DNA of 64,000 nt from Pseudomonadota bacterium. GTDB lineage: Bacteria > Desulfobacterota > Desulfobulbia > Desulfobulbales > JAGXFP01. This document shows positions 13,226 to 21,196 of the stretch, in pieces. The stretch spans positions 1 to 64,000 of the forward strand of contig JAHJAA010000030.1 of the NCBI GenBank assembly GCA_018814305.1, read 5' to 3'. How positions within the stretch are numbered: the first letter of the stretch is position 1; each line of letters begins with the position of its first letter. The notes under the pieces are model-generated. The model saw only the letters and a program-made list of their open reading frames with translations. It did no database searches and was not told where the DNA came from. The position numbers and the translations under genes are program-made.

Positions 13226-14440
13226 TTACTTCCCCGCCATCTCCTTAATCATCCTAGCAGCCTCATGCTTGATCTCCACCAGATCTTTCTTCATCTCAGC
13301 CAGACCATACCAGGTGGTGTAATCCGGGTTCATATGGAAAGCTCCCTGGAAGGCCCGCATCCGGTGCTCCAGGAACATCACATAGAGGGTCTGCTCCACC
13401 GGGGTAATCGCATCATAGAAGGTCAAGAGATCCGGGTAGGCCGCCTTGCCGGCTTCAGGCTTAATAATCCCCTTGGTATAGAGATCGGCGACAATCTCGA
13501 TGGCCTCTGCCATCAACTTATCGGCCTCCTTGATCATGTTATCGGCACTGGCCAGATTTGATTCGGCATAGGTTTTACTGTGACACTTGCTGCAGACCTT
13601 GACCATCCGGTCCCGCTCGGCTTGCCATTCTTCCTTGGTAAGCCTTGCCACCATTCCAGCCTTGACCACTTCCAGACGAGCCGTCGGCTTTCCTTCCGGA
13701 TCAAGAACATGAAGCCCCTTTAAGATCGTAGCCCGATAGCCCATCCACTCTTGATCATCTTCGGGCAAGCGAACCGCCAGGAAGCCCCAGGAGGTCATAA
13801 CCCGATGATTACCGTTTTCCATATGACAGGTCTGGCAGGTTGGAGCTCGACCGGTGTCACCTTCAGTCTGGTAGATCACCCCATGCTTGGATCCGGACCA
13901 CATCTCCCACTGGGGATGATCAAAGCCCATATGACAGGTCCGACAGGCCTCGGGCCGCTTGGCCTCAGCCTTGGAAAATTTATGCCGCGTATGACAGGAA
14001 TCACAGGGCGAGCCGTAGCGAGAAGCGGCCTTGGTGGCTTCATCCCGTACCCCGATCTTATGACATCCGCCACATCCCTTCATCCCCTGGATATAGGGAT
14101 GGGGTTGAATACCGGTCTTGGGCATGGCATCCATGGCAATCCAGGCGGCCATATGTTTGCCGCTCATGTACTGCTCATGCTGGGTTTCATGGCATTGTTG
14201 GCAGGTCTTTTCATCGGGCATCTTCACTTTGGCAAAGTCATCCTGCCCCAGATGGTCTGTCCCGTGACAACTGGAGCAATCCACTGAGCCGGATTTCCCC
14301 ATTTCACCGGCCAGAAAATCTTTGACCACGTTAGGCGTGATCTCCCGGTGACAGGTAATACAGGTGCTCTCGGCAGCTGCAACCAGCCCCGGCAGCCCCA
14401 AGAAGAAAACGGCAACCATCAGCAAAATACCTTTCTTCAT
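13226..14440 (-). CDS. Octaheme cytochrome c of the hydroxylamine oxidoreductase family
   Basis: The 404-residue product has a Sec signal peptide (cleavage near residue 23) and exactly eight CxxCH motifs at 27, 55, 80, 123, 146, 166, 202 and 283, the number and spacing pattern of the HAO family. The fourth (CGGCH) corresponds by order to the catalytic heme. In anaerobes such proteins more often reduce nitrite or hydroxylamine than oxidise hydroxylamine; the direction depends on a crosslinking tyrosine in the C-terminal part, and I cannot decide whether DYTTWYG supplies it. There is no C-terminal membrane anchor, and no quinol-oxidising partner gene is adjacent. GGGAGAAGAA precedes the ATG. 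A CRP/FNR-type palindrome lies upstream, fitting control by nitrogen oxides or anaerobiosis. Confidence 0.85.
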   Translation of the reverse strand: MKKGILLMVAVFFLGLPGLVAAAESTCITCHREITPNVVKDFLAGEMGKSGSVDCSSCHGTDHLGQDDFAKVKMPDEKTCQQCHETQHEQYMSGKHMAAWIAMDAMPKTGIQPHPYIQGMKGCGGCHKIGVRDEATKAASRYGSPCDSCHTRHKFSKAEAKRPEACRTCHMGFDHPQWEMWSGSKHGVIYQTEGDTGRAPTCQTCHMENGNHRVMTSWGFLAVRLPEDDQEWMGYRATILKGLHVLDPEGKPTARLEVVKAGMVARLTKEEWQAERDRMVKVCSKCHSKTYAESNLASADNMIKEADKLMAEAIEIVADLYTKGIIKPEAGKAAYPDLLTFYDAITPVEQTLYVMFLEHRMRAFQGAFHMNPDYTTWYGLAEMKKDLVEIKHEAARMIKEMAGK

Positions 14441-18905: not shown

Positions 18906-18947
18906 GAAAAAAAAGAGCCAAGGCCCCCGCAACGAGGTCCTTGGCTC
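18906..18947 (-). terminator. Rho-independent terminator after the MerR gene
   Basis: GAGCCAAGG pairs with CCTTGGCTC and is followed on the minus strand by eight T. It ends the set small membrane protein - nrfD - merR. Confidence 0.88.
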
Positions 18948-18976
18948 AAGATCAAACAACATGGAGGAGGGGACGT

Positions 18977-19417
18977 TTACTTCCCCACCTTTTCTTTGAC
19001 GGACGGGATGGAACCAACCTGCCGCTCTGCCGCCCGAGCGGCGCGCTCAGAGCGGGCATCACCTACCAGCCGCATAATCCGCGGGGCCGCCCGATCAATC
19101 AACGCCGGACAGACAGCGTGGATTTCCTCCGGGCATTCGGCAATATCCCAACAGGGCGCCAATTCCAACAGTTTTTTCAGCCCGGGAATACTGATCCCCT
19201 GCTCATGGATCACCTTACGCAGACAGGAAACCCAGGTAATGTCATTCTCAGAAAACATCCGCCGCTTCCCCTTGTGGTCAGGGCTGATCAGCCCTTCGTC
19301 TTCATAGATCCGCAGGGTTCGAGGATGGACATCAAGCAGCTTCGCCGCGACCCCTATGGGATAGATCGGGGTATCGGGCGTTAAAGGCCGCACATCTGAT
19401 CGCTTTCGAGGAGTCAT
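18977..19417 (-). CDS. MerR family transcriptional regulator with a Cys-Trp cluster
   Basis: The 146-residue protein has a MerR-type winged helix (IGVAAKLLDVHPRTLRIYEDEGL), close in sequence style to the HspR branch, and a short C-terminal part. That part carries C89-W90, C95-P and C103-P, resembling half of the Cys-Trp clusters found in some Desulfobacterota sensor proteins, so metal or redox sensing is plausible. AAAGAGAG precedes the ATG. It lies 99 bp downstream of nrfD on the same strand, with no terminator between them and a strong one after it. It is therefore probably the last gene of the nrfD transcript and may control the dyad-bearing promoter at its head. Confidence 0.82.
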   Translation of the reverse strand: MTPRKRSDVRPLTPDTPIYPIGVAAKLLDVHPRTLRIYEDEGLISPDHKGKRRMFSENDITWVSCLRKVIHEQGISIPGLKKLLELAPCWDIAECPEEIHAVCPALIDRAAPRIMRLVGDARSERAARAAERQVGSIPSVKEKVGK

Positions 19418-19516
19418 GTCGCAACTCTCTTTATATGGAGCAATTTTTCAGAGATCCCACCGGCCCATCAACAGGCCGGTGAGATGGAACAGAACAGTTA
19501 AGGCAGAGTCAGGCCA

Positions 19517-20710
19517 TCAATGGTCTTCAGAGAGATGGCCACGGAATAAACGCTCACCCATGAGAAAGCCCATTACGCACAACCCGATACCACCTAGCGT
19601 AACCATGATCTCATGCAGGGAAGGAATATACGGAAAGAGTTCCGGAAGGCCAACGACCCCATACTCATGGAAATGGGGTACGATCTGACCGACAACCACC
19701 AGGTCATAGCGCATGAAGAAGATTCCGATGATGGCGGAAACCGAGGCAACGAAGAGAATCGGCAGGTTTTTGGCCTTGCAGGAAATAATCAGGAAGAAGG
19801 GGATAACCATGCCGAGCATGACCTCACCAACCCAGAAATTAACCGAATAAGGACCATTCACCAAAGACATCATGGCCTCATATTTTCCCGGAGGATGCCC
19901 ACTGATCCCGGAAATCATTTTCCAGGTGGTGAAAAACATGATGACAGCCGTCAGGGTAGCACCAAGTTTTGCCGTGGTCTTCAGGGAACTTTCCAGAGCG
20001 GGACTCATCTGCCAACCATTGGCCTTGTACCCAAGCCAGGTGAAAAAGATAACCGCAGCACAGCCGGACATCATGGCGGAGGTGATGAAATAAATCGGCA
20101 TATAGGGGCCATGCCAGAATTCCCGGCCACCTAAAAGACCAAAAACCGCGCCCAGGTTACTATGGGCAGCAATACCGGAAACCACTCCCAAAAGGCCCAG
20201 GTAGCCGGCCATTTTATGCTGTCCCATCTGCAACAGGGCGAACTCTATGGCCATGAAGAACAGATAGGCACCGTAAAGGGTTCCCATCCACCAAATATTA
20301 GAAGTAGGATTGGCACTGATCATATTATAGATTGGCATCCGCCAGGGATTTTCGATCTCAAACCCGATGATCAAAAAACCGGCGATGATCGACACAATGG
20401 CCATAAATACAGAACGCTTGGCAATGGGTTTCAAGGCATCGACATTAAAAACATGGCCGATGGACGAAACCAGGCAAAGACCGGTGGAAGTAACAACAAA
20501 AAAGACATACGCTGCGATGAGCAACCCCCAGGGCATCTCCCTGGTGTTATTGTAGGCATGCTCATGCCCGATCAACAGAGCATGCATCCCGAAGGCTATA
20601 CCTGCTGCTGCAAAAAGCCCGCTTATTACTATCGCCAGATTGTAACTTTTTGAGGTGGCAACCTCCAAACCGCCCTCTTGGGGTAGCACACTCGCCAACA
20701 GATTGTTCAT
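19517..20710 (-). CDS. nrfD: NrfD/PsrC family quinone-interacting membrane protein
   Basis: This 397-residue protein is almost entirely membrane-embedded (about ten helices) and matches the NrfD family, which exchanges electrons between the quinone pool and iron-sulfur or cytochrome partners, sometimes with proton movement. The family GREFWHGPYMPIYF segment and a HFHEYG segment near the end are visible. NrfD normally sits in an operon with a four-cluster ferredoxin-type subunit and a catalytic subunit; neither is here, so it is an orphan. An ideal AAAGGAGAG site precedes the ATG. The neighbours are a 42-residue membrane peptide upstream and a MerR regulator downstream. The gene symbol denotes the family only. 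Confidence 0.85.
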   Translation of the reverse strand: MNNLLASVLPQEGGLEVATSKSYNLAIVISGLFAAAGIAFGMHALLIGHEHAYNNTREMPWGLLIAAYVFFVVTSTGLCLVSSIGHVFNVDALKPIAKRSVFMAIVSIIAGFLIIGFEIENPWRMPIYNMISANPTSNIWWMGTLYGAYLFFMAIEFALLQMGQHKMAGYLGLLGVVSGIAAHSNLGAVFGLLGGREFWHGPYMPIYFITSAMMSGCAAVIFFTWLGYKANGWQMSPALESSLKTTAKLGATLTAVIMFFTTWKMISGISGHPPGKYEAMMSLVNGPYSVNFWVGEVMLGMVIPFFLIISCKAKNLPILFVASVSAIIGIFFMRYDLVVVGQIVPHFHEYGVVGLPELFPYIPSLHEIMVTLGGIGLCVMGFLMGERLFRGHLSEDH

Positions 20711-20918
20711 GGGACTCTCTCCTTTGTTCGTTGATTTTTTTAAGTATCCCCTCTCAACTTCCCCCGAAATTTCACTTCAGGAGTACTTCGACATCTTCCA
20801 GGCTGAAATAATTCCCGAAAAATCTCCATTCACTAAGGTAAAGCCACCCGACTTTTTACTTCTCAATACCGATGGCACTCATTTTCAGCCCATCGACATC
20901 ATAATCGGGAAAAAACGA

Positions 20919-21047
20919 TTAGAACCCTGGATAATCCGTTTGTTCGTCACGATGTGCTTGAATCAAGGGCTTGATCTTCAGATCAAAGACGGTGTGAAGT
21001 GTGGCGCAACCTATCCAGAAAACCAGAAAAAAAATCCCTTCCATCAT
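20919..21047 (-). CDS. Small membrane protein of 42 residues upstream of nrfD
   Basis: Not in the ORF track because of its size. A perfect Shine-Dalgarno AAGGAGG lies three bases before tandem ATG codons, and the frame runs 42 codons. The product starts with one hydrophobic helix (EGIFFLVFWIGCATLHTVF) and ends in a charged cytoplasmic tail. It lies 113 bp downstream of a near-consensus promoter and about 210 bp upstream of nrfD on the same strand. I do not recognise the family; a small partner or stabiliser of NrfD is a reasonable guess. The gap between it and nrfD shows only very short frames. Confidence 0.6.
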   Translation of the reverse strand: MMEGIFFLVFWIGCATLHTVFDLKIKPLIQAHRDEQTDYPGF

Positions 21048-21166
21048 GAACCTCCTTAAAACGGTTACCTTCCCCTTTTTCACGACAATGAGCCCAATCC
21101 ATCAAAGTTCAGGACTACCTGCTCTTCATTTCAATGAACCGGAACCCCAACTTAACTCTGGTTCAC

Positions 21167-21196
21167 ATTGTACAATACGGAAAAAGCTATTGTCAA
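21167..21196 (-). promoter_or_regulatory. Sigma-70-type promoter with a dyad in an 18-bp spacer
   Basis: On the minus strand TTGACA (21196-21191) and TACAAT (21172-21167) are separated by 18 bp. The dyad ACAATA-N10-TATTGT (21172-21193) fills the spacer, and the -10 also lies within the palindrome ATTGTACAAT. MerR family proteins bind dyads exactly between -35 and -10, and a MerR gene is the last gene of the set this promoter would drive. Confidence 0.65.

Follow-up and report, generated by a model that had tools for sequence, protein, structure and literature searches.

On the minus strand of the window, the 64,000-nucleotide stretch of DNA analysed here, a promoter, a small-peptide gene, an NrfD gene, a MerR gene and a terminator follow one another in that order (18913-21196). 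Comparison with relatives establishes that the three genes are a genuine conserved unit and not a chance arrangement. Our preferred reading, to which we give a probability of about 0.6, is that the trio is an autoregulated cassette for a membrane quinone-reactive anchor, which would serve a periplasmic FeS/c7 module. The trio probably belongs to a larger, unnamed respiratory complex rather than standing alone as an orphan.

The three-gene unit

All the elements that the sequence-only reading had placed on one strand are present. We designate the NrfD and MerR proteins of the trio NrfD A and MerR A.

21167..21196, minus strand: promoter TTGACA-N18-TACAAT (11/12 consensus matches) in an imperfect dyad, CTTGACAAT...ATTGTACAA, a possible MerR operator
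20919..21044, minus strand: gene for a 41-residue peptide with one hydrophobic stretch, MEGIFFLVFWIGCATLHTVFDLKIKPLIQAHRDEQTDYPGF; conserved in 64/79 loci, dN/dS 0.23
19517..20710, minus strand: NrfD A, 397 aa, 10 transmembrane helices, ActC-like fold (PF03916, E 1e-32)
18977..19417, minus strand: MerR-family regulator A, HspR/GlnR-like N-terminal domain, C65/C89-W90/C95/C103 (PF13411, E 2e-13)
about 18908..18947, minus strand: intrinsic terminator at the end of the unit (-24.3 kcal/mol, z -3.5, then U8 after the hairpin)

A simple scan gave only a weaker form of the terminator, owing to its loop limit. The peptide, NrfD A and MerR A would be encoded on a single transcript. The gap between the peptide and NrfD genes (20711-20918) is 208 bp long in the window and mostly 50-100 bp in relatives. 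No match to an RNA family was found in this gap, and a riboswitch or other RNA in the leader was dropped as a candidate after zero Rfam matches. In the window's genome, the trio adjoins flagellar genes.

A search for the trio in relatives, as had been proposed from the sequence, confirmed that it is kept as a unit. NrfD A was found in 37 of 96 relatives at 58-100% identity, and a scan of GTDB genomes gave 79 NrfD A loci at 64-89% identity, mostly in Desulfobulbales and including cultured Desulfobulbus, Desulfogranum, Desulfopila, Desulfosediminicola and Desulfofustis. The peptide gene lies directly upstream of NrfD A in 64 of these 79 loci and the MerR gene directly downstream in 76, while NrfD A itself is 70-89% identical across families. 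The closest relative examined (G002, NrfD 89% identical) also carries an FeS gene, a triheme cytochrome gene and a second NrfD-MerR pair.

The sequence-only reading had made conservation of the peptide frame decisive, and the frame is indeed conserved, with a median dN/dS of 0.23 over 832 pairs, which indicates purifying selection. The peptide and its AAGGAGG had been recognized correctly, but not its length of 42 residues: AAGGAGG is followed by ATGATG, and because relatives use the second ATG the peptide has 41 residues; the form from the first ATG begins at 21047. In nearly all loci the peptide has 35-41 residues with the core M(E/D)G..FLVFW.G.A.LHT.FDLK(I/V)KP, in which F-W-HT-D is invariant, and the ribosome-binding sites of the peptide genes are strong. 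Its presence in 64/79 loci and this dN/dS establish the peptide as a real gene. Its assignment to a known small subunit was dropped, as matches were absent in PDB, Pfam and NCBIfam.

The linked FeS/c7 module and the NrfD paralogues

The view of the trio as a self-contained orphan did not survive comparison with relatives. Among the 32 loci with at least 7 kb of flank on both sides, an FeS gene lies no more than 9 kb from the trio in 25, on the same strand in 24; in the other seven it is more than 9 kb away or absent from the available contig. The FeS gene encodes a 254-residue Tat protein with several 4Fe-4S clusters, and a triheme c7 cytochrome gene usually accompanies it. Downstream of the trio there usually follow an antisense sigma-54/PAS activator, the FeS gene and the triheme c7 gene, and further on often a 75-residue one-helix protein, then the second pair, NrfD B and MerR B. 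This second pair, the FeS gene and the cytochrome gene lie within 3-9 kb in G002 and most other relatives. Ordinary operons of nrfD with FeS subunits in close relatives, together with a chance origin of the trio, had been named beforehand as grounds for refutation; linkage to the FeS gene is real in most relatives, but the trio is not due to chance.

All but one of the 37 genomes that carry NrfD A, 36 in total, have the FeS gene (Fisher p about 1e-5, uncorrected for kinship), almost always in a single copy. The exception, G027, is a 93% complete draft, and its sister G017 encodes the FeS protein. Genomes with both A and B have one FeS copy, except G054 with two, whereas those with B and a C-type sister of A have two or three. 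Gene order varies among relatives. In L137, a record of the 100% complete genome G025, which has no B, the order NrfD_A-MerR_A-FeS-cytochrome is contiguous; in L184, which comes from a different family of the phylum, it is FeS-cytochrome-peptide-NrfD_A-MerR_A; and in Desulfopila, Desulfosediminicola and Desulfofustis the full series FeS-cytochrome-NrfD_B-MerR_B-peptide-NrfD_A-MerR_A lies on one strand. In G039 the FeS and cytochrome genes are 17 kb from the trio on the same contig, and in the complete genome G065 a B-like NrfD is the sole such NrfD beside the FeS gene. Three loci (L125, L129 and L142) have three NrfD genes, with an extra A-like NrfD before FeS in addition to NrfD B and the peptide-linked NrfD A.

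In the window's genome, the FeS, triheme c7, NrfD B, MerR B and sigma-54 activator genes are found together at the end of another contig, C80 (G000:C80, L051:9330-15373), with an integrase-like gene at the contig edge. Their separation from the trio may reflect a rearrangement or an assembly gap. Because the partner genes are on C80, the cassette probably works in trans with their products in this genome. It had also been suggested that NrfD lends electrons to soluble partners without an FeS subunit. This is unlikely, because FeS partners are encoded both in relatives, where the gene is linked, and in the window's genome, on C80.

NrfD A matches PF03916 over most of its length with 114.5 bits (cut-off 25.8). 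Its AlphaFold2 model (pLDDT 83, pTM 0.86) has ten long helices and fits the NrfD family, with the ActC/PsrC fold of two four-helix bundles. In Foldseek comparisons, the model agreed better with ActC (TM 0.79-0.81) than with ActF (0.62-0.63), and PsrC matched it over its length. The quinone site of NrfD-type proteins has been defined by acidic and Ser residues (PMC8076601), with an acidic or His residue of the first bundle complemented by a conserved Ser. In NrfD A, E118 and S137 are invariant and correspond in the alignment to the Asp and Ser that DsrP and QrcD carry there. The idea that A, with Ala at its position 104, had lost the site in the manner of ActF was considered and dropped, since alignment with DsrP, QrcD and HybB places the pair at E118/S137.

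The paralogues differ at other positions. Y149 occurs in A, in most C proteins and in each of the five other NrfD proteins of the window's genome, but is Ala in 42/42 B proteins, and 41/42 B proteins carry H183N and E197P. By this pattern it is B that has diverged, and NrfD A, the supposed orphan, is closer to the canonical form. Both A and B retain the two core quinone-site residues, so sequence cannot tell which of them, or whether both, contact the FeS protein. In a quick maximum-likelihood tree, B is separate (support 100) and C forms a group (99); all other sequences are A-type, those of the Desulfofustis type branching off on their own. In the sister clade C, the NrfD gene is directly followed by the FeS gene.

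The MerR regulator and the promoter dyad

The residues C89-W90/C95/C103 had been named correctly, and C65 belongs with them: all five are invariant in 24/24 A- and B-type relatives. The N-terminal winged helix of MerR A most resembles those of HspR and GlnR, and GlnR is its best structural match; compared with these two, MerR A adds an invariant C-W-x4-C-x7-C motif. MerR A scored below the equivalog cut-offs for HspR (64.3 bits, cut-off 105), SoxR (15 against 117) and ZntR, CueR and MerR (21-27 against 143-168). The [2Fe-2S] motif of SoxR is CX2CXCX5C, and the cysteine spacing in MerR A is C89-x5-C95-x7-C103. As the model of MerR A is of modest confidence in the cysteine region (pLDDT about 50-80), we make no claim on site geometry.

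Among 148 sampled genomes of the phylum, strong relatives of MerR A recur, some of them beside multihaem cytochrome or NrfD genes, pointing to an uncharacterised Cys-Trp MerR family linked to electron-transport genes. The window's genome has a third Cys-Trp MerR gene (G000:C52, L182:5643-12534), beside a pentahaem cytochrome gene and 4 kb from an operon of a tetrahaem cytochrome, an FeS protein and a distant NrfD. The composition of this locus recalls the DsrOhPh-tetrahaem locus of cable bacteria.

Near-consensus promoter sites like that of the trio are not in excess in the region overall (4 found, 4.8 expected). Upstream of the peptide, however, CTTGACAAT with no more than one mismatch occurs in 41/63 loci against 2.3 in shuffles, and TTGACA in 55/63 upstream regions against 5.9. 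Upstream of the FeS gene CTTGACAAT is weaker yet enriched (12/49, 1.8 expected); upstream of NrfD B it gave no signal. For a second arm, ATTGTCAAG, a spacing of 4 is preferred, to a degree that 0/500 shuffles reached, uncorrected for kinship. The exact palindrome CTTGACAAT-N4-ATTGTCAAG is found in L132 and L141, whereas the window's dyad is imperfect and wider. In these clearest relatives, the inverted repeat resembles that of HspR, CTTGAGT-N7-ACTCAAG. Some NrfD A-MerR loci have no recognisable peptide (for example L116, L119, L127, L132 and L141), and there a strong CTTGACAAT stands just upstream of NrfD.

The window's dyad is a possible MerR operator, and the idea that MerR controls its own operon is probable, the promoter with its dyad being conserved. 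MerR A would repress or activate the cassette from the dyad over the -35 box, and its cysteines would sense a redox, metal or haem cue.

Known complexes and competing readings

The locus shares parts with several described systems. As in alternative complex III, NrfD A has the ActC fold and canonical quinone-site residues, and most loci contain two NrfD proteins, an FeS protein, a multihaem c cytochrome and small one-helix proteins, the two NrfD genes being divided between two contigs in the window's genome. Unlike alternative complex III, the locus lacks the ActB-type molybdopterin-like/FeS fusion, the pentahaem ActA and the monohaem ActE; its FeS subunit is a separate ferredoxin-type protein and its cytochrome the triheme c7. 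HmcC is the best NCBIfam match of NrfD A, and the Hmc complex likewise has an NrfD protein adjoining a periplasmic FeS protein and a multihaem cytochrome, yet the HmcC score is 67 bits against a cut-off of 550, and the 16-haem HmcA and other Hmc genes are absent from the locus. The Hmc complex also includes a small membrane subunit, HmcD. DsrMKJOP and the TMH1-DsrOhPh-tetrahaem locus of cable bacteria likewise combine a DsrO-like Tat FeS protein and an NrfD protein with a multihaem cytochrome of the periplasm and a small one-helix protein, but NrfD A reaches 42 bits on DsrP (cut-off 350) and the FeS protein 169 on DsrO (cut-off 200). A separate DsrMKJOP-like locus is present in the window's genome on contig C5. 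The molybdopterin-like subunit QrcB, together with QrcACD, is absent from the locus, and a Qrc-like operon lies elsewhere in the genome, on C73.

Judged by sequence, the parts come from known families, and the full feature set of Hmc, Dsr, Qrc or alternative complex III is in no case present. The closest described architecture, likened by description only, is the TMH1-DsrOhPh-tetrahaem locus of cable bacteria, whose function is unknown and for which electron transfer from quinone to periplasmic cytochromes has been proposed (PMC13047784). An NrfD of Desulfolithobacter dissulfuricans reported as a Ttr-type subunit was judged, also by description only, to be unrelated. No published account of the locus or of paired NrfD-MerR cassettes was found among the open-licence papers searched.

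In the preferred reading, NrfD A would pass electrons between menaquinone and the periplasmic FeS protein, and the c7 cytochrome and other cytochromes of the periplasm would exchange electrons with that FeS protein, while the peptide would be a structural subunit packed against NrfD A. A contrasting possibility is that NrfD A needs only the peptide and neither FeS nor catalytic subunits, the two acting as a quinone-linked ion translocator or as a membrane scaffold for soluble partners. In the window, a promoter and a terminator of its own delimit the trio and the vicinity contains no FeS gene, and the seven well-flanked relatives without FeS within 9 kb, together with G027, point the same way. 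We nevertheless regard this as rather improbable, given the near-universal presence of the FeS gene in genomes with A, the draft state of G027 beside its FeS-encoding sister, and the position of A directly within FeS-cytochrome operons in L137 and L184. It is highly implausible that the trio is a remnant or that unrelated genes came together by chance, even though the trio stands apart from the FeS module and beside flagellar genes in the window's genome; selection on the peptide, the identity of NrfD across families and the conserved gene order and promoter rule out chance.

The role of NrfD B is a further point of divergence. NrfD A and B could be two subunits of one complex, as are ActC and ActF, or alternative anchors switched by their own MerR proteins. 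A single complex of both with the FeS protein, the c7 cytochrome and two small helix proteins, similar to alternative complex III, would be consistent with the linkage of A and B in most relatives around one shared FeS copy, with the single-strand arrangement in Desulfopila, Desulfosediminicola and Desulfofustis, and with the loss from B of residues conserved in A, loosely like ActF relative to ActC. It is doubtful, however, in view of the complete genomes in which FeS is accompanied only by A (G025) or only by a B-like NrfD (G065), the separate MerR of each NrfD, and the retention in B of quinone-site residues that ActF lacks (PMC8076601). We lean towards alternative anchors, because each can be the sole such NrfD beside the FeS gene in a complete genome. 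Tentatively, the locus may encode an undescribed quinone:periplasmic-cytochrome oxidoreductase, widespread in Desulfobulbales, with two swappable NrfD anchors, each having a one-helix peptide and a Cys-Trp MerR that decides which is made.

The trio and its linked genes define an unnamed, conserved, probably respiratory locus of a whole order of sulfur bacteria, present in cultured Desulfobulbus, Desulfogranum, Desulfopila and Desulfofustis strains, and they make it possible to test directly whether one periplasmic FeS/cytochrome module can accept different NrfD membrane subunits. The case also shows that NrfD genes that look like "orphans" can have been separated from a larger system to which they belong.

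Elsewhere in the window, positions 13226-14440 (minus strand) encode a c-type cytochrome of 404 residues that carries eight CxxCH motifs and is related to the hydrazine dehydrogenase/hydroxylamine oxidoreductase group, with a match below the cut-off (NF052343, 9e-27).
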